Source of the DNA: Halobacterium hubeiense
GTDB lineage: Archaea > Halobacteriota > Halobacteria > Halobacteriales > Halobacteriaceae
DNA: 64,000 bases
Assembly (NCBI RefSeq): GCF_001488575.1
Contig: NZ_LN831302.1
Coordinates: 992,001 to 1,056,000 of the forward strand
Direction of reading: 5' to 3'
Part shown: piece after piece, positions 9,360 to 19,978 of the stretch
How positions within the stretch are numbered: position 1 is the first letter of the stretch
Layout: each line of letters starts with the position of its first letter
Program-made: the position numbers and the translations under genes
The notes under the pieces: model-generated
Seen by the model: the letters and a program-made list of their open reading frames with translations, nothing else
Databases searched by the model: none
Told to the model about the DNA's origin: nothing

Positions 9360-9634
9360 TCCTGCAAGCCGTTCCGTACTTTCCATCGAATCGGGCTTCG
9401 ACGCCCCGCGCGGCGACCACGCAGCGGTTCGCCAGTGTGCAGCCGTTCGTGGACCACGGTTCCCGAACGTATTCGGCATTCGTCCGGTTTCCCGACCGAC
9501 AACTGCCCGTTCAAACTCCTTAATGTGGTAGTACCCATCCTAATACTGGTCGAACACTAGCCCACACACGGTATTATCGACTAAACGTCAACGCCTAGCT
9601 TAATGTAGTTGGTGGTGATTGATTTTCGCGTAGA

Positions 9635-9730: not shown

Positions 9731-11050
9731 ATGGCGCTGATACGGATGACGAAGTACCGGACGCTGTTACTCGCGACCGTCGGGTTCAACTTCTCGTTTC
9801 TCATCTGGTTCTCGTTCGCGCCGTTCACGGAGCCGATGGCCAGCGAGTTCGGGCTGTCGCTGGCGGAAATCGGGCTGCTCGCGAGCGCGAACATCTGGCT
9901 GGCGCCGTTCGGGCGCGCGCTGACCGGCTGGCTCTCGGACAAGTTCGGCGCGCCCTCGGTGTTCGCCATCGTGTTGGGGTACGTCGGCGTGTTCTCCATC
10001 GCGTCGGCGTTCGCGCAGTCCTACGGCGTGTTCTTCGTCGAACGGCTCATCGTCGCAACCGCGGGCATCACGTTCGTCGTCGGCATCCAGCACGTCGCGG
10101 AGTGGTTCGAGGAGGAGAACCTCGGGCTCGCGGAGGGCATCTACGCGGGCATCGGGAACGCCGGTGCTGCGGGCGGGGCGCTGATTCTCCCGCGCGTGTT
10201 CGGGACGAACTGGAACGGCCCGCTGTTCTCGACGAACTGGCGGGCGGCGTTCTTCTACACGGGCGTTGTCTCGATTCTGCTCGGCGTGGCGTACTTCACG
10301 CTCGGGGAGGCCGCCAAGACCGAGGAGAAGCGGCAGGCGACCAAGGACAGCGCGAGCTTCGGCGGCTGGGTGCACACCGCGACGCGGTACGGAACGCTCG
10401 TGCTCGCGCTCGCGTACGTGATGACGTTCGGCCTGGAGCTGTCGATGAACGGCTGGCTGGCGACCTACTACCGCGAGGGGTTCGGGACGAACAACCTCGT
10501 GCTCGCGAGCACGTTCGCGGCGACGTTCTCGGTGGCGGCCGGTCTGCTGCGCCCCATCGGCGGCTACGTCAGCGACCGGCTGGCGCGCGCCGAGCGCAAC
10601 ATCCTCCCGTTCTTCACGGGCCACTACCGCGAGCAGTGGACGTTCACCGCGATGTCGTTCGTCGTCGTCGCGATGTTCGGGATGACCCTCGCGGGGCTGT
10701 CCGGCGAGGTGTTGCTCGCGGTCGCCGCGGGCTTCCTCGTGGGGATGGGGTGTGCGTTCGCGGAGGGCGCCATCTTCGCGCAGGTGCCGGCGATGTTCCC
10801 GAACAGTTCGGGGGCGGTCGCGGGCGTCGTCGGCGGCGTCGGCACCATCGGCGGCATCGTCTACCCGCTGGTGTACTCCGCGCAGTTCCTGCCGAACCTC
10901 CACGTCGGCTACGCGGTGGTCGCGGCGTCGATGGTGCCCATCCTCGCGTTGACCGCGTGGGTGTTCCAGCCGAGAATCGCCAGCGTCGCCCACGAGGCGG
11001 GCTTCGGCAGTTCGACCCCGTCGGCCGTCGAAGCGCCGGGTGACGACTGA
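9731..11050 (+). CDS. narK: nitrate/nitrite transporter, NNP family of MFS
   Basis: 439 residues from the ATG at 9731, with about 12 membrane helices. It shows both glycine-rich nitrate signatures of the NNP family: [15 protein letters not shown] (about residues 131-145) and [16 protein letters not shown] (about residues 365-380). It also has the [13 protein letters not shown] loop and the conserved arginine regions VERLIV and [10 protein letters not shown]. It imports nitrate for assimilation, since mobA, nitrite reductase and nitrate reductase follow on the same strand; the gene corresponds to nasB of haloarchaeal nas clusters. Its stop overlaps the mobA start (ATGA at 11048-11052). The upstream region holds an inverted repeat and a short overlapping open frame. 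Confidence 0.92.
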
Positions 11051-11811: not shown

Positions 11812-13584
11812 ATGGCACACAAGAAAGAGGAGTGGAAGGCCGAGCAGTACGGGGACGAAGTCAGAGCACAGCTCGAGGAGTTCGCCGAGCGCGGCTGGGA
11901 GGCGATTCCCGAGGACGAACACGACAAGTGGTTCTCCCGGTTCAAGTTCTGGGGGGTGTTCCACCAGCGCGGCGGCCAGGAGAGCTACTTCATGATGCGG
12001 CTGACCAACTGCGGCGGCGTCCTCGAACCGGACCAGCTGCGGGCCATCGGCGAGGTCGCCCGCGACTACGCGCAGGGCCCCGCCGAGAACCCCGAGTTCG
12101 GGAACGGCTGGATCGACCTCACGACCCGCCAGTCCATCCAACTGCACTGGCTGAAACTCGAAGACATCCCCGAGATCTGGGAGAAACTCGAAGCCGTCGG
12201 CGTCTCCTCGCGCTCGGCGGGCGGGGACACGATGCGCAACATCTCCGGCTGTCCGGTGGCCGGGAAGGCCGACGAGTACGTCGAGAGCCGCGAACTGCTG
12301 GACGAGATTCAGGAGGGCATCCGCGGCGACGACGACCTCGCGAACATGCCCCGGAAGTTCAACATCTCGGTGACGGGCTGCCGGCAGGGCTGCGCGCAGG
12401 ACGCGCTCAACGACGTCGGCCTCGAACCCGCGCACAAGCTCGTCGACGGCGAAGAAGTCCGCGGCTTCAACGTCCGCGTCGGCGGCGGCCTCGGCGGCCG
12501 CGAGCCCCGCAAGGCCCGCCCGCTGGACATCTTCGTCACGCGCGAGCAGGCCTACGACACCGTGCGCGCGTTCGTCGAACTGTACCACGAGGAGGGCAAC
12601 CGCGAGAACCGCTCGAAGAACCGCGGGCGCTTCTTCGTCGACGAGTGGGGCACCGACGAGATTCGGGACGCCCTCGACGACCGGCTGGACTTCGAACTGG
12701 AGCGCGCGGGCACCGACTTCCGCGGCGAGTACACGTACAACGCCGGCAAGCCCACGGAGCGCGGCGCCCACGACCACGTCGGCGTCTACGACCAGAAGGA
12801 CGGGCAGAACTACGTCGGCATCAGCGTCTCTCTCGGTCGGCTGCGCGCCGACGAAGCCATCGAACTCGCGGACCTCGCCGACGAGTACGGCAGCGGGGAA
12901 GTCCGGCTGACGCGCCGGCAGAACCCCATCATCACGGACGTCGCGGACGACGACCTCGACGACCTGCTCGCGGAGCCGCTGCTCGGCAAGCACAAGCCCG
13001 AGCCCAACCCCTTCGAGCAGGGCGCGATGGCCTGTACGGGCACGGAGTTCTGCTCGCTGGCGCTCACGGAGACGAAGGCGCGGATGGCGCGCCTGCTGCG
13101 CTGGCTCGGGGACAACGTCGAGGTGCCCGACGACGTGGACCGCATCAAGATGCACTTCTCGGGGTGCACCGCGGACTGCGGGCAGGCGATGACCGCAGAC
13201 ATCGGTCTGCAGGGGATGCGCGCGCGCAAGGACGGCGAGATGGTCGAGGCCGTGGACGTCGGCGTCGGCGGCGGCGTCGGCGAGGAGCCGACGTTCATCG
13301 ACTGGGTGCGCCAGCGCGTCCCCGCTGACGAGCTTCCGGGGATGATTGCGAACCTCGTGCGGGCGTTCGCAGCGCTCCGCGAGGACGGGCAGACGTTCCG
13401 CGAGTGGGTGGAGGCGACCGGCCACGAGACCATCGTGGAACTCGCGGAGCCCGAGGAGGTCGAAGGGTACACCGACCCCTGCCTCTACGACGCCAAGCAG
13501 TCGTGGTACCCGTTCGCGGAGGGGGACAGTCCGGCGCCGACCGCCGCCGACGGCACGCCGCTGGCCACCGAGAGCGATGACTGA
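11812..13584 (+). CDS. nirA: assimilatory ferredoxin-nitrite reductase (sirohaem/4Fe-4S)
   Basis: 590 residues from the ATG at 11812. The protein has the two-fold nitrite/sulfite reductase repeat: a ferredoxin-like half-domain near RFKFWGVFHQRGGQESYFMMRLTN, then NISGCPVAG and NISVTGCRQGCAQ, and the second half with VSLGRLRADEA. The cluster/sirohaem ligands are Cys408, Cys414 (CTGTEFC), Cys452 and Cys456 (GCTADC). It reduces nitrite to ammonium with electrons from reduced ferredoxin. It corresponds to nasD of haloarchaeal nas clusters. Sulfite reductase is the alternative in this family, but the flanking nitrate genes make nitrite the likely substrate. Its stop codon overlaps the start of the 32-codon ORF at 13577. 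Confidence 0.92.
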   Translation: MAHKKEEWKAEQYGDEVRAQLEEFAERGWEAIPEDEHDKWFSRFKFWGVFHQRGGQESYFMMRLTNCGGVLEPDQLRAIGEVARDYAQGPAENPEFGNGWIDLTTRQSIQLHWLKLEDIPEIWEKLEAVGVSSRSAGGDTMRNISGCPVAGKADEYVESRELLDEIQEGIRGDDDLANMPRKFNISVTGCRQGCAQDALNDVGLEPAHKLVDGEEVRGFNVRVGGGLGGREPRKARPLDIFVTREQAYDTVRAFVELYHEEGNRENRSKNRGRFFVDEWGTDEIRDALDDRLDFELERAGTDFRGEYTYNAGKPTERGAHDHVGVYDQKDGQNYVGISVSLGRLRADEAIELADLADEYGSGEVRLTRRQNPIITDVADDDLDDLLAEPLLGKHKPEPNPFEQGAMACTGTEFCSLALTETKARMARLLRWLGDNVEVPDDVDRIKMHFSGCTADCGQAMTADIGLQGMRARKDGEMVEAVDVGVGGGVGEEPTFIDWVRQRVPADELPGMIANLVRAFAALREDGQTFREWVEATGHETIVELAEPEEVEGYTDPCLYDAKQSWYPFAEGDSPAPTAADGTPLATESDD

Positions 13585-13675
13585 CGACGCGGCGGCCTCG
13601 ACGGCGCCGATGGACGTCGCGCCCGAACTGCTCCCGGCGAACGCCGACCGCTCGGCCGGGGTGGACGACGCGTGA
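13577..13675 (+). CDS. micro-ORF of 32 residues coupled to nirA and nasA
   Basis: ATG 13577 to TGA 13675, encoding an acidic, Ala-rich 32-residue peptide (starts MTDDAAASTAPMDVAPELL). It overlaps the end of nirA by 8 bases and the GTG start of nasA by 4 bases (GTGA), so it bridges the two genes by translational coupling. Nearly all third positions are G or C, as in real genes here. It has no recognised domain, Cys pair or membrane segment. It may be a true microprotein of the nitrate reductase, or only a coupling device that carries ribosomes into nasA. Confidence 0.55.
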   Translation: MTDDAAASTAPMDVAPELLPANADRSAGVDDA

Positions 13676-15765
13676 GCGAGCCGGTTCAGACCACGTGTAT
13701 GCGGTGTGCGGTCGGCTGCGGCCACCTGACCGACCGCGTGGACGCCGGCTACGGCATCGGGACCGTGCGCGGCGACGTCACCCACCCCGTCAACCGCGGG
13801 CTGGCGTGCTCGCGGGGCGTCGAGGAGACGAAAGACCCCGACGGGACGTGGCTGACGCGCCCGCTCGTGCGGATGGACGGCGACCTCCAGCCGACGACGT
13901 GGGACGTGGCGCTCTCGCGCATCGCCAACGAGTTCGGCGCCGCGCTCGAACGCGACCACGACAGCGTCGCGGTGCTGGGGAGCGGCCAGCAGACCAACGA
14001 GGCGGCGTACGCGCTCGGGAAGCTCGCCCGCGGCGGGTTCGGGACGCGCTACTACGACGCCAACACCACACTCTGCATGGCGAGCGCCGTCACCGCGTAC
14101 TACGACGCGTTCGGTAGCGACGCGCCGCCGTGCACGTACGACGACATCGAGGACGCGCAGACGCACGTCGTCTGGGGCGCGAACCCGGCGGTCGCCCACC
14201 CGGTGATGTTCCGCTGGATTTCCGAGAGCGCGACCGCCGACGACAGCGAACTCGTGGTCGTGGACCCAGTCGGCACGAAGACCGCCCAGGGCGCCGACGA
14301 ACACATCGCGCTCGAACCGGGGACGGACCTCGCGCTCGCGCGGGCGGTGCTGGCTCGCGTCGTCGAGCGCGGCGACGTCGACGAGGAGTTCGTCGAGGAG
14401 GCGACCACGGGCTTCGAGGAGCTACGCGGCGACCTCCCGGACCCGGAGGAAGCCGCCGCGACCGCCGACGTCGATATGGAGACTGTCGAGAAGCTCGCGG
14501 ACGCGTTCGGGGAACAGACGCTCGTTTACTGGGGGATGGGCGTGAATCAGAGCACGCAGGGAACGGAGACGGCGGGCGCGCTCGTGGACCTCTGTCTCGC
14601 GACTGGGAACCTCGGGCCGGGCACGGGGCCGTTCTCGCTGACCGGGCAGGCGAACTCGATGGGGACGCGCGTGTGCTCCTCGAAGGGCTCGTGGCCGGGG
14701 ATGCGGTCGTTCTCGGACCCGGACGAGCGGCGGGTCGTCGCGGACGCGTGGGATGTTCCCGTCGAACGCCTCCCCGACGACCCCGGGCCGGGACCCGTGG
14801 GGCTCGTGAACGCAATCGGGGACGGACCAGTCGAGGCGGTCTGGACGGTCGCGACGAACCCCGCGGCGGGCCTGCCGGACGCCTCCGCGGCGCGCGAGCA
14901 CCTCGAAGACGCGTTCCTCGTCGCGCAGGACGCCTTCCACACCGAGACGACGGAGCTGGCGGACGTCGTGTTGCCGGCGGCGACGTGGGGCGAGTCCTCG
15001 GGGACGGCGGTGAACATGGAGCGCCGCGTCTCCCGGATTCGGCCGGCATCGGACCTCGTCCCCGACGTGCGGACGGACCTCGACATCATCACCACGATTG
15101 GAGAGCTGCTGGTCCCCGGGCTCCTCGGCGACCCCGACCCCCGGGACGTCTTCGACGAGCTCGCGGCGCTGACGGCGGGCACGCAGGCGGACCTCTCGGG
15201 CATCAGCTACGCGCGTCTCGACGAACAGCAAGCCGTGCGCTGGCCGGCGCCGGACGCCGTCTCGCAGGGCGGCTACCGCTACTACGACGACGGCGACTGG
15301 TCGTTCCCGACGCCCTCGGGGAAGGCGCGCTTCTCCACCGGACGCCACGAGGGCCTCCCGGAGCCGACGAACGAGACGTACCCGCTCACGCTGACGACGG
15401 CGCGGGAAGCCGACGGCTACAACACGGGCGTGCGCTCGCGGGGCGAGGATGCGCCCGCGAACCCGCTCGCGCGTGTCAACCCCGAGACCATCGAGCAGGC
15501 CGACGTCCCGGCGGACGCCGACGAGGCGGTCGTGGAGTCCCGCCGTGCGACCGTCCCCGTGCGCGTGGAAGTCGACGAAGCGGTGCCCGAAGGACTGGTG
15601 TGGCTGCCGATTCACCACCCGGAGACGAACGCGCTGACGCTCCCAGAGACGGACCCGCGCTCGGACGAGCCGAACTTCAAGCAGTGCGCGGTGCGCGTGC
15701 GGCCGGTCGCCGACGAGGCCGCGGCCGGCACGCTCGCGGACGCGGACGCGCCCGCCGACGACTGA
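13672..15765 (+). CDS. nasA: assimilatory nitrate reductase, molybdopterin-dependent
   Basis: 697 residues from the GTG at 13672; this start keeps the N-terminal 4Fe-4S site close to the terminus, as in the family. Cys9, Cys12, Cys16 and Cys46 (CMRCAVGC... LAC) bind the cluster. Molybdopterin-oxidoreductase blocks follow: VLGSGQQTNEAAYALGKLA, VWGANPAVAHPV, VYWGMGVNQSTQGTE, GNLGPGTGPFSLTGQANSMG, FHTETTELADVVLPAATWGE, and a C-terminal dinucleotide-binding domain (PLTLTTAREADGYNTGVRS). It reduces nitrate to nitrite in the cytoplasm, probably with ferredoxin. MGD cofactor would come from MobA encoded upstream. There is no Tat signal, which fits an assimilatory rather than respiratory enzyme. Confidence 0.92.
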   Translation: MSEPVQTTCMRCAVGCGHLTDRVDAGYGIGTVRGDVTHPVNRGLACSRGVEETKDPDGTWLTRPLVRMDGDLQPTTWDVALSRIANEFGAALERDHDSVAVLGSGQQTNEAAYALGKLARGGFGTRYYDANTTLCMASAVTAYYDAFGSDAPPCTYDDIEDAQTHVVWGANPAVAHPVMFRWISESATADDSELVVVDPVGTKTAQGADEHIALEPGTDLALARAVLARVVERGDVDEEFVEEATTGFEELRGDLPDPEEAAATADVDMETVEKLADAFGEQTLVYWGMGVNQSTQGTETAGALVDLCLATGNLGPGTGPFSLTGQANSMGTRVCSSKGSWPGMRSFSDPDERRVVADAWDVPVERLPDDPGPGPVGLVNAIGDGPVEAVWTVATNPAAGLPDASAAREHLEDAFLVAQDAFHTETTELADVVLPAATWGESSGTAVNMERRVSRIRPASDLVPDVRTDLDIITTIGELLVPGLLGDPDPRDVFDELAALTAGTQADLSGISYARLDEQQAVRWPAPDAVSQGGYRYYDDGDWSFPTPSGKARFSTGRHEGLPEPTNETYPLTLTTAREADGYNTGVRSRGEDAPANPLARVNPETIEQADVPADADEAVVESRRATVPVRVEVDEAVPEGLVWLPIHHPETNALTLPETDPRSDEPNFKQCAVRVRPVADEAAAGTLADADAPADD

Positions 15766-16298: not shown

Positions 16299-16310
16299 CG
16301 AACGAGTTCG
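16299..16310. promoter_or_regulatory. CGAAC-N2-GTTCG palindrome before the haem-copper operon
   Basis: CGAAC-GA-GTTCG has perfect 5-bp arms and lies 39-50 bases upstream of the first gene of the operon. It resembles the CGAAC/GTTCG half-sites described for the haloarchaeal oxygen-responsive regulator NarO, but with a shorter spacer than I recall for that motif. It overlaps the first copy of the 18-bp motif at 16307. Confidence 0.4.
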
Positions 16311-16348: not shown

Positions 16349-16498
16349 ATGTCGGCCGAAACGAACGACGGGACCGCACCGTGGCCCCAGCAGCTACTGG
16401 ACAGCGAGTGGCTGCTGGCGGGCGCGGCAATCCTCTACTTCGTGATTTCGTACGTGTTGTGGGGTGTAATCGACATCTTCACGGTTCCCATGGGGTGA
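16349..16498 (+). CDS. small membrane subunit of the haem-copper oxidase operon (49 residues)
   Basis: ATG 16349 to TGA 16498; 49 residues, too short for most gene callers. A polar N-terminus (MSAETNDGTAPWPQQLLD) is followed by a single hydrophobic helix (WLLAGAAILYFVISYVLWGV, about residues 21-40) and the short tail IDIFTVPMG. It lies 4 bases upstream of the CuA subunit gene. Small single-helix subunits of this kind occur in the haloarchaeal cba (ba3-type) oxidase clusters, and a similar one-helix subunit packs against subunits I and II in bacterial ba3 oxidase. Codon use matches the neighbours, which supports a real gene. Confidence 0.7.
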   Translation: MSAETNDGTAPWPQQLLDSEWLLAGAAILYFVISYVLWGVIDIFTVPMG

Positions 16499-16502
16499 TT
16501 CG

Positions 16503-17483
16503 ATGAGCGACGACGAACACTCGCCGCTGGAGTCCCCCGAGGGGAACTGGTGGAACCAGAAGGTCAACCGCCGGGAGTCCATCTGGCTGGGCATCTCGGG
16601 CGCGTGGGCGGTGTCGATGTTCGGCTGGATGCTCGGCTGGACGCAGGTCGGCGAGCAGAACCAGACCGGACAGACCTACGAGGTGAGCACCGAGCGCTTC
16701 CGGCAGAAAGTCCAGTCGTTCAAGGAGTCTGCGGGCACGCTGGAAGTCGACGGCGAGGAGCTGCTCGTGCCGGACGGCAACGACGTCTACGTCGGCGCGC
16801 TCCAGTGGGCGTGGGACGGCCTCCCCGTAGTGTTGCGGCCCGGCGAGACGTACAAGTTCCACCTCGGCGCCTACGACGTCCAGCACGGCTTCGGCGTGCG
16901 CCCGGAGGGCAACCTCAGCAAGCAGATTTCGCTCCAGATTCTCCCGGGCTACGAGTGGGTCGTGGAGATGTCCTTCGACGAGACGGGCACCTACCACGTC
17001 GTCTGCAACGAGTTCTGCGGCGTCGGCCACCGCACGATGCACGGCACGTTCGTCGTGCGGGACCACGAGCCCGTCGAGACCGGCAGTAGTAGCGAGGACT
17101 CCTCGAACGCCGCCTACGACGGCTGGTTCACGAGCGACGGGCGCGGCGGCGCGACCGACAGCTTCGGCGGGTCGCCGACCGACGCCACCGGCCAGAGCGA
17201 GGTCACCGTGGAGGTCGGCGCCGAGGGGAACGGCGGGCCGTACGCGTTCGCGCCGACCGCCGTGCAGGTGTCCTCGGGGACGACGGTGAACTTCGAGTGG
17301 GTGTCGGACAACCACAACGTCCTCGTGGAGTCCCAGCCCGACGGCGCGGGCTGGCAGGGCGTCGAGTCCTTCGAGAACGAGGGGTACAGCCACTCGGTGA
17401 CGTTCGACGAGCAGGGCGTCTACAAGTACTACTGCGAGCCCCACGTCGGCATGGGGATGAAAGGCGTCGTGGAGGTGGTCTGA
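16503..17483 (+). CDS. haem-copper oxidase subunit II: CuA domain fused to a halocyanin domain
   Basis: 326 residues from the ATG at 16503. One N-terminal membrane helix (about 28-48, IWLGISGAWAVSMFGWMLGW) anchors the protein. The first cupredoxin domain (about 60-190) has the binuclear CuA ligands His128, Cys168, Cys172, His176 and Met179 (CNEFCGVGHRTM). A Ser/Gly linker leads to a second cupredoxin domain (about 210-326) with the type-1 blue copper set His271, Cys311, His314 and a downstream Met (CEPHVGMGM), which is typical of halocyanin. The fused halocyanin is probably the direct electron donor to CuA. The gene starts 4 bases after the small subunit and is followed after one base by subunit I, so all three are one operon. 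Confidence 0.9.
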   Translation: MSDDEHSPLESPEGNWWNQKVNRRESIWLGISGAWAVSMFGWMLGWTQVGEQNQTGQTYEVSTERFRQKVQSFKESAGTLEVDGEELLVPDGNDVYVGALQWAWDGLPVVLRPGETYKFHLGAYDVQHGFGVRPEGNLSKQISLQILPGYEWVVEMSFDETGTYHVVCNEFCGVGHRTMHGTFVVRDHEPVETGSSSEDSSNAAYDGWFTSDGRGGATDSFGGSPTDATGQSEVTVEVGAEGNGGPYAFAPTAVQVSSGTTVNFEWVSDNHNVLVESQPDGAGWQGVESFENEGYSHSVTFDEQGVYKYYCEPHVGMGMKGVVEVV

Positions 17484-17484
17484 G

Positions 17485-19194
17485 ATGTTCGGGTTAGCTA
17501 CGTTCGACTACGACGACGACGGCTTCCGGGAGTGCGGCGTCACGGGACTGACGATTCACAAGTCCGCCGAGGACCTCGTGAAACTGTTCGGCCTCACGGC
17601 CATCGTGTCGCTGGCGGTCGGCGGCGCGTTCGCGCTGACGGTCGCGCTCACGCGCTGGGAGGCAATCGGCCTCCTCGGCCCCGGGAAGTACTACCGGTTC
17701 ACGAGCCTCCACGCGTGGTTCATGATTCTGTTCTGGATGGTGTTCATGGAGATCGCCATCCTCTACGTCGGCGGGCCGTTCGTCCTGGGGCGGAAGCTCT
17801 CCGTCCCGAAGCTCGGGTGGGCGGGCTACGGCATCATGCTGCTGGGCGGCGGCCTCGCCGTCTACAGCATCGCCACCTACGACCTCCCGAATCAGGCGCC
17901 GTTCTACACGTCGTACGTGCCGCTGCCGTCGCCGGCGCCGTACTTCGCGGGCGCCGTGTTGTTCCTGCTCGGGGCGCTCGTCGCCGCCGTCCCGTTCTTC
18001 GTGACGCTGTGGCGCGAGAAGCGCGAGCACCCGACCAAGACGCTGCCGCTCATCACGTTCGGCGCGTTCATCACGGGCGTCATCGCCTTGGAGGCGCTGG
18101 TCGGCGGCATCACCGCGCTCACGCCCGCGTTCCTCTGGCGCATCGGCTTCTTCGAGCACCTGGACGCGGCGTGGTACCGGCAGATGTTCTGGACCATCGG
18201 CCACGGCAGCCAGCAGATCAACCTGCTGGCGATGATCACGGTCTGGTACTTCATGACCCACGTCATCGGCGGCGCGGAGGTCGCCTCCGAGAAGGTCTCC
18301 CGCGTCGCGTTCGTGCTCTACCTGTTCTTCATCAATCTCGGCGCCGCCCACCACCTGATGTCCGACCCCGCGCTGTCCTCGGCGTGGCGGATGTGGAACA
18401 CGTCCTACGCGGCGTACGGCGCGGTCGTCGCGTCGATGATTCACGCGTTCGCCATCCCCGCGGGGCTGGAGGCCGGCCGCCGCCGGAAGGGCGCTGGCGG
18501 CGGCCTGTTCGGCTGGCTGTGGTCCGCGCCGTGGAAGGACCCCGGGTTCTCCTCCACGATTCTCTCGATCATCCTGTTCGGGTTCCTCGGCGGCATCACG
18601 GGCGTGATGATGGGGCAGATGCAGCTCAACATGAGCTGGCACAACAACCTCGCGGTCCCCGGGCACTTCCACGCCACCGTCGTCCTCGGCACGACGCTGT
18701 CGTTCATGGGGCTGGCGTACTACGTGCTCCGGCTGGTGTTCGGCCGCGACTGGTTCGCCAGCCGGCTCGCGTCGATTCAGCCGTTCTTCTACGGCGGCGC
18801 GATGGCCGTCGTCTGCCTGATGATGATGTATCTGGGCCTGCTGTTCGGCGTGCCGCGGCGCCACCCCTCCGTGATGGACATCCCGGGGACGGCGTTCGAC
18901 TTCTCGCCGGCTGAGCCGTTCTTCGTGGTGTTCGGGGCGGCCGCCATCCTCTCGGTCGTCGCGGGCGCGCTGTTCGTCGTCGTCGCGGTCGGCACGCTCC
19001 TCTTCGGCGGCGAGTTCACGCCGCCCATCGTCGAGGACCGCGCCATCTCCCCGGGCAGCGGCGACGCCGACCCGCCCCACGACCAGAGCATGCGCGGGAC
19101 GTTCGTGCTCGTGCTCGTGTTCTTCGGCGTGTTCGTCGTGCTGTACGCGCTGAACTGGTTCCTGCTCTCGCAGGTCTGGGAAATCGGTCCCTGA
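17485..19194 (+). CDS. haem-copper oxidoreductase subunit I (cba/ba3-like), lacking the active-site tyrosine
   Basis: 569 residues with about 13 membrane helices. Visible ligands are His76 (LHAWF, low-spin haem), CuB His240 in helix VI (IGHGSQQ), CuB His289 and His290 (AAHHLM), and His394 and His396 (VPGHFHATV) for the high- and low-spin haems. This layout is that of the B-family ba3 oxidases. The tyrosine that is cross-linked to the first CuB histidine in ba3 and aa3 enzymes (four residues later, HPxVY) is Gln244 here. The alternative cbb3-type tyrosine position (six before His-His) is Ile283. It either reduces oxygen without that residue or reduces NO. It is co-transcribed with the CuA-halocyanin subunit. 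Confidence 0.88.
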   Translation: MFGLATFDYDDDGFRECGVTGLTIHKSAEDLVKLFGLTAIVSLAVGGAFALTVALTRWEAIGLLGPGKYYRFTSLHAWFMILFWMVFMEIAILYVGGPFVLGRKLSVPKLGWAGYGIMLLGGGLAVYSIATYDLPNQAPFYTSYVPLPSPAPYFAGAVLFLLGALVAAVPFFVTLWREKREHPTKTLPLITFGAFITGVIALEALVGGITALTPAFLWRIGFFEHLDAAWYRQMFWTIGHGSQQINLLAMITVWYFMTHVIGGAEVASEKVSRVAFVLYLFFINLGAAHHLMSDPALSSAWRMWNTSYAAYGAVVASMIHAFAIPAGLEAGRRRKGAGGGLFGWLWSAPWKDPGFSSTILSIILFGFLGGITGVMMGQMQLNMSWHNNLAVPGHFHATVVLGTTLSFMGLAYYVLRLVFGRDWFASRLASIQPFFYGGAMAVVCLMMMYLGLLFGVPRRHPSVMDIPGTAFDFSPAEPFFVVFGAAAILSVVAGALFVVVAVGTLLFGGEFTPPIVEDRAISPGSGDADPPHDQSMRGTFVLVLVFFGVFVVLYALNWFLLSQVWEIGP

Positions 19195-19209
19195 CCGCGG
19201 GCAAATATA

Positions 19210-19227
19210 TTCGGGACAACCCCCACC
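19210..19227 (+). repeat. 18-bp motif, copy 2 (after the haem-copper operon)
   Basis: TTCGGGACAACCCCCACC, 17 of 18 bases identical to 16307-16324. It follows directly after the TATA-like AAATATAT at 19203-19210 and lies 37 bases upstream of the GTG start at 19265. This suggests that the next gene has its own promoter under the same control as the oxidase operon. Confidence 0.55.
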
Positions 19228-19264
19228 CGCCGTAGCCGCCAACGTCTACGCAGGGTGACGCACA

Positions 19265-19978
19265 GTGGCTAACCAGACCGAGACGTCGCCGTCCGTGCTC
19301 GCCGGCGTCGCCAGCGCAGTCCGCGGCGGCTGGCGCACCGCCAAGACCGTCTACTACGCGAACTCGGTGAGCTGGCGCGTGCTGAAGAGCGGCGCGCTCG
19401 TCTTCCTCGGGTGCTTCCTGTGGGCGGGGTCGAACGTCCTCGGGTCGTACGTGGACTGGGGCGTCCTCGACTACACGATGGCGTACGGCGCCGTCGTGCT
19501 CGTCTACGGGCCGATTCACCACCTCGTCGTGATTCCGCTGGCGCTGCGCTGGCGGCGCTCCGCGGGGTTGCGCCAGCGCGTCGGGAAGCGCCTGCCGACC
19601 GCGATGCTCGTGGTGTTCCTCGCGGCCGTCGCGGTCGCGGGGACGTTCTCCGCGGGCGCGATGGCGGTGGACTTCGGGTCCGCGATGGGCGGGGACGGCG
19701 CGACGGCCACCCAGCCCGAGTTGGCGTGTACCACCGAGTCCGGCGGCGAGACCGTCGCGTGTGAGGTGACGAACGCCGAGCGCGTCGAGCGCGTGGTCGT
19801 CACGAGCGCGGGCGAGCAGTTGCTCGCCGTCGATGACCCGCCCTTCGAGTTCACGGTCGAGGCGTCGGCCGTCGAGTCAACGATGGACCGCGAACAGTTC
19901 CGCGTGCGCCTCTACGACGGGAACGGGAACCTCGTGCGGCAGTACACGCGCCGGCTCTCCACGGTCGGCCTGAACTAG
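19265..19978 (+). CDS. membrane protein of unknown function, possibly associated with the haem-copper operon
   Basis: 237 residues from the GTG at 19265. Three membrane helices are predicted: about 42-62 (LKSGALVFLGCFLWAGSNVLG), 70-95 (YTMAYGAVVLVYGPIHHLVVIPLAL) and 115-138 (AMLVVFLAAVAVAGTFSAGAMAV). A C-terminal extracellular domain of about 95 residues follows, with two cysteines (ACTTESGGETVAC) and a beta-rich pattern. The HH pair in helix 2 could bind a metal or haem, but this is speculation. It shares the 18-bp upstream motif with the oxidase operon. It may be an assembly factor or an extra subunit; I do not recognise the family. Confidence 0.75.
   Translation: MANQTETSPSVLAGVASAVRGGWRTAKTVYYANSVSWRVLKSGALVFLGCFLWAGSNVLGSYVDWGVLDYTMAYGAVVLVYGPIHHLVVIPLALRWRRSAGLRQRVGKRLPTAMLVVFLAAVAVAGTFSAGAMAVDFGSAMGGDGATATQPELACTTESGGETVACEVTNAERVERVVVTSAGEQLLAVDDPPFEFTVEASAVESTMDREQFRVRLYDGNGNLVRQYTRRLSTVGLN

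Follow-up and report, generated by a model that had tools for sequence, protein, structure and literature searches.

In the oxygen reductases of the haem-copper superfamily, an active-site tyrosine provides both an electron and a proton when the O-O bond is cleaved, while the reduction of NO requires no such donor. In nitric oxide reductases (NORs), this tyrosine is repeatedly replaced by Gln, Asn, Asp or Glu (PMC8756737 Table A4). The eNOR family (Hemp and Gennis 2008; Murali et al. 2024; PMC8756737) is defined by an active-site Gln and an upstream cupredoxin subunit II, and its known carriers already include Natronomonas and other Halobacteria (PMC8756737). With reference to Murali 2024 it is counted among the biochemically characterised NORs, and it reduces NO under micro-oxic conditions (PMC11388526). 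The CuANOR, or bNOR, of Bacillus azotoformans is an NO reductase with a CuA site and a kinship to the B-type oxidases, and is reported only from Bacillota (PMC11388526). For haloarchaea, a 2021 survey named qNOR as the only NO reductase class (PMC8400030).

We analysed a haloarchaeal window of 64,000 nucleotides from Halobacterium hubeiense (G000:C1:992001-1056000). The operon at 16349-19978 of this window is, with a probability of about 0.86, an eNOR-family nitric oxide reductase operon, with NO reduction as its predicted catalysis. Its subunit I is a member of the already described family and is joined to an unusual electron-entry module. A sequence-only reading had proposed a CuA-dependent NO reductase, or else an oxygen reductase working without the tyrosine, and not an ordinary ba3 oxidase; eNOR membership, NirK in 31 of 31 carrier genomes and a denitrification-type operator all point to the first of these. 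The same reading missed a 49-residue subunit and the fusion to a halocyanin, and did not recognise that the family was known. Its expectation that pipelines would call the gene an oxidase proved right, as plasmid-borne relatives are annotated as 'cbb3-type' or 'b(o/a)3-type' oxidases.

The gene for the predicted eNOR-type subunit I (17485-19194, + strand) is an uninterrupted reading frame of 569 amino acids, and the Pfam COX1 profile (E 4e-56) identifies its product as a haem-copper subunit I. Direct inspection confirmed the complete set of haem and CuB histidines (H76, H240, H289, H290, H394, H396), the Gln instead of Tyr at +4 from the first CuB His (Q243-Q244 in the motif IGHGSQQIN) and the Ile at the cbb3 tyrosine site (I283, six residues ahead of H289), all of which had been claimed earlier. 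When aligned with Thermus ba3, Q244 pairs with the cross-linked tyrosine, native Y237. With Gln244 and Ile283, the protein carries neither the cross-linked Tyr at His+4 that marks the B family (ba3) nor the Tyr six before His-His that marks the C family (cbb3). The relatives compared, 30 from haloarchaea and 84 from bacteria, all had Gln at position 244, whereas Tyr stood there in 21 of 21 ba3-type oxidases. Thus, Q244 is neither a product of chance nor a sequencing error.

Further positions set the two groups apart. All 114 eNOR-side sequences contained Q243, Q244, N246 and H320 and had Ile or Leu at the cbb3 Tyr position. Residue 320 lies at the position of the ba3 K-path Thr; it was His throughout the eNOR side and Thr in 21 of 21 ba3 sequences. 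On helix VIII, all or nearly all eNOR sequences have Y308 and Y311, which ba3 sequences lack. In the alignment, the conserved polar residues Y255, S317, H320 and Ser/Asn268 occupy ba3 K-path positions, and they may line a proton channel. We also observed a Lys at the low-spin haem ligand position in 4 of the 84 bacterial eNOR sequences; for the plasmid eNORs of Thermus thermophilus (L040:11983-13665, L039:9983-11665), this ligand motif reads HFK, not HFH, in the Thermus sequence that was aligned.

To delimit the family, we searched 194 Halobacteria genomes with the protein. Matches at 59-100% identity and above 700 bits were found in 31 of them, and a sharp gap separated these from the remaining matches, ba3 oxidases near 30% identity and below 190 bits. 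Bacterial relatives are about 40-46% identical and spread over many phyla. A contig scan supplied 80 bacterial loci; the enzyme assayed by Murali and colleagues in 2024, which reportedly came from Rhodothermus marinus, was not among them. Phylogeny had been named as a possible refutation of the NO reductase assignment. It clustered subunit I with the eNOR side, and eNOR and ba3 formed separate clades (SH-aLRT 100) in a tree of eNOR-side and ba3 sequences made by a quick method with a midpoint root, its eNOR side defined by the Gln and by homology and not by named reference proteins. On contigs of Nitrospirota (L077:10695-12083, L094:3996-5417, L095:9704-11212, L097:6367-7851), a second haem-copper-like subunit I was seen near eNOR, with a GH[IV]LQ motif and without the CuB His-His pair.

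Structure modelling had also been suggested as a check. The AlphaFold2 model of subunit I, built from 42 sequences (mean pLDDT 87), has the oxidase fold, with a VIA Z of about 34-35 to Rhodobacter aa3 and Thermus ba3. The Thermus and Natronomonas ba3 oxidases resemble this enzyme in fold (VIA Z 34-35, 25% identity), metal ligands, CuA and a small IIa-like subunit, but they differ from it in having Tyr where it has Gln, in sharing only about 30% sequence identity and in belonging to a separate clade.

Directly upstream of subunit I, positions 16503-17483 (+) encode the cupredoxin subunit II, which consists of a membrane anchor, a CuA domain and a C-terminal halocyanin domain. Both copper sites have complete ligand sets: H128, C168, E170, C172, H176 and M179 for CuA, and H271, C311, H314 and M319 for the type 1 copper of the halocyanin domain (residues 217-325, approximately). 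Among profiles, TIGR03102 (halocyanin) matched over its cut-off and CoxB weakly. The locus thus shares with the described eNOR family the active-site Gln, the haem and CuB histidines and the upstream cupredoxin subunit II, but differs from it in the halocyanin domain. We found this fusion in 8 haloarchaeal genomes and not in bacterial relatives, among those whose subunit II was located. In some haloarchaeal ba3 operons a halocyanin is fused to subunit IIa (PMC3128077), whereas here it is fused to subunit II.

The operon opens with a gene below the usual ORF cut-offs, which encodes a single-helix membrane protein of 49 amino acids (16349-16498, +). Each of the 18 haloarchaeal loci examined has a similar small ORF immediately 5' of the subunit II gene, and small annotated ORFs are found at the same place in Thermus, Thermomicrobium and Defluviimonas. 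Given its resemblance to the IIa subunit of B-type oxidases (PMC3128077), the protein may be the counterpart of that subunit. At the other end, a membrane protein of 237 amino acids (19265-19978, +), which matched no Pfam family, is probably an accessory or assembly factor. It follows subunit I in 18 of the 18 loci, directly or one gene further; the gene that is sometimes intercalated is UbiA-type and haem-O-synthase-like. The 49-residue membrane subunit and the halocyanin domain on the CuA subunit are details new in the present analysis. In a nirK-linked cluster elsewhere, upstream of the eNOR operon of that locus, L126:6271-7761 combines a COX15/CtaA-like N-terminal part (below the Pfam cut-off) with a UbiA prenyltransferase, possibly a fusion for haem O/A synthesis.

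Fifty nucleotides ahead of the operon's first start codon, we located a palindromic operator-like site, CGAACGAGTTCG (16299-16310). It fits CGAAC-N2-GTTCG, a motif known from the denitrification promoters of Haloferax mediterranei, where the nor and nosZ promoters carry CGAACATGTTCG and mutation reduces promoter activity (PMC10062603). The chance expectation of the motif in the 106-bp intergenic region is 0.0009. All 8 loci with a fused subunit II have the operator at -50 or -51, with 8, 9 or 10 of 10 bases matched, and most other haloarchaeal eNOR loci have a degenerate version at -56 to -62. For the oxidase genes L001 and L002, no operator was found in the stretch just upstream of subunit I, which need not be the promoter of their operons. 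The 3.13-Mb genome contains 27 such sites, 6 of them inside 12 kb around nirK. This interval (G000:C1:1543030-1554902), in which the six sites surround nirK and a halocyanin-like gene, is apparently a denitrification regulon. Within the window, CGAACGTATTCG at 9464-9475 is a near match to the operator, 267 nt before an MFS transporter gene at 9731.

Upstream of the operon, and outside the system, lie a nirA-like gene of the ferredoxin-nitrite/sulfite-reductase family (11812-13584, +; below equivalog cut-offs) and nasA, an assimilatory nitrate reductase gene (13672-15765, +; NF041323 over cut-off). The sequence-only reading had taken the place behind nitrate/nitrite genes to fit an NO reductase. 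This argument does not hold, because by profile match the genes are assimilatory, do not have NO as a product and are separated from the operon by an intergenic region with a probable promoter and an operator-like site. We therefore rejected these neighbours as evidence for denitrification. At 18 haloarchaeal loci, the neighbourhood of the orthologous operon yielded no homologue of nasA or nirA.

We then compared the distribution of eNOR with that of NirK (TIGR02376 over cut-off) in the 194 sampled Halobacteria genomes, which are phylogenetically correlated. NirK was present in all 31 genomes with eNOR versus 69 of the 163 without it (Fisher p 9e-11). Since related genomes tend to agree in having or lacking eNOR, these counts are not independent. 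Within genera, the exact probability of the pattern was 4e-8, or about 2e-6 by hand calculation when G091 and G163, with their fragmented NirK matches, are scored as NirK-positive. In 12 of the 31 genomes nirK is located 3-9 kb from eNOR (within 10 kb), and these genomes belong to a handful of related genera. In the H. hubeiense genome itself, the eNOR operon lies some 525-540 kb from nirK and qNOR. In Thermus thermophilus NAR1, the genes next to an eNOR relative include those for a nitrite reductase, a regulator of the Rrf2 type and a DUF542 protein, and about a dozen of the 80 bacterial contigs, with their limited flanks, carry nirS- or nirK-like genes.

The H. hubeiense genome also encodes a qNOR (G000:C1:1534450-1536732). 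This NOR (NorZ), the one recognised in haloarchaeal surveys (PMC8400030), would share its substrate with the enzyme described here and is present in the same genome, but it is a single-chain, quinol-type enzyme, whereas eNOR is multi-subunit and fed through CuA and halocyanin; their kinship is at superfamily level only. Side by side, the two may serve different conditions. A qNOR is held by 21 of the 31 genomes with eNOR. The other 10 have NirK and no intact qNOR; there, what looks like a missing step of the pathway would be supplied by a gene that carries an oxidase annotation. Among NirK-positive genomes, qNOR occurred in 21/31 with eNOR versus 52/69 without (p 0.47), that is, the two are statistically independent, and eNOR does not as a rule simply take the place of qNOR. 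In G100, which has intact eNOR and NirK, the qNOR match comprises only 61 C-terminal residues (G100:C1:2875890-2876075) and looks like qNOR decay; its congeners G043 and G070 have both enzymes. NirK without eNOR and without qNOR (at E 1e-100) was seen in 17 Halobacteria genomes (G008, G019, G050 and 14 others).

Judging from the ligands and from known oxidases, electrons of the respiratory chain would pass through the type 1 copper of the fused halocyanin to CuA in subunit II, and from there via the low-spin haem (H76/H396) to the binuclear haem-CuB centre of subunit I (H394; H240/H289/H290). At this centre, 2 NO + 2 H+ + 2 e- would be converted to N2O + H2O, with Gln244 in the place of the donor tyrosine of O2 reductases. 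The polar line includes H320, which takes the place of the K-path Thr of ba3 enzymes, and suggests that protons are taken up from the inside, so that the enzyme may conserve energy; a conserved proton path of Q244, Y255, S317 and H320 might make NO reduction energy-conserving. The invariant His320 at a K-channel position is likewise a new detail of this analysis. Apart from Gln244, NO as the substrate is favoured by the co-occurrence and linkage with NirK, by the ten eNOR genomes lacking an intact qNOR, by the Thermus neighbourhood and by the operator; the qNOR that this genome already has and the two helix-VIII tyrosines count against it. The likely role is respiration or detoxification of NirK-made NO under low oxygen, next to qNOR.

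Could the enzyme instead reduce oxygen without a cross-linked tyrosine, with Gln244 or a helix-VIII tyrosine taking part? The fold common to ba3 and aa3 oxidases, the CuA subunit II, the IIa-like small subunit known from B-type oxidases (PMC3128077) and the two eNOR-specific tyrosines on helix VIII would all suit such an enzyme. However, co-occurrence with NirK is complete and linkage frequent, the operator is shared with the nirK cluster, two oxidases of the aa3 type are available for O2 in this genome, and the family is listed among characterised NO reductases (PMC11388526). We consider an oxygen reductase improbable. A CuA subunit and B-type relatives would equally be expected of another CuA or B-family NO reductase (bNOR/CuANOR, sNOR or gNOR), but the decisive site is Asn in sNOR and CuANOR and Asp in gNOR (PMC8756737 Table A4), compared with Gln244 here and Gln in 114 of 114 relatives, so that membership in one of these families is highly improbable.

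The eNOR assignment itself allows a bifunctional or mainly detoxifying variant, in which NO is the physiological substrate, O2 is reduced slowly, and the enzyme is used under micro-oxic conditions beside the aa3 oxidases and qNOR. It agrees with the qNOR found in 21 of the 31 eNOR genomes and with the micro-oxic NO reduction reported for the family (PMC11388526), but a detoxifying role leaves the retained CuA, the fused donor and the conserved polar path unexplained. We regard this variant as rather unlikely.

Carried by 31 of 194 sampled genomes, eNOR has been overlooked in published denitrification surveys of haloarchaea, and the finding conflicts with the statement that haloarchaea have qNOR only (PMC8400030). 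For annotation, the Gln offers a one-residue rule dividing NO from O2 reductases. Worth keeping from this locus are the electron-entry subunit with its fused halocyanin, the additional small subunit and the denitrification operator. Haloarchaea are genetic hosts in which an electrogenic CuA-type NOR and the replacement of the tyrosine can be tested in vivo. Tentatively, and at slightly less than even odds, we propose that a haloarchaeal subgroup possesses a self-contained halocyanin-CuA eNOR within the denitrification regulon, which would conserve energy via a modified, His320-containing K-type channel and replace qNOR in about one third of its carriers; NO reduction and N2O output by these organisms would then have been missed by surveys.
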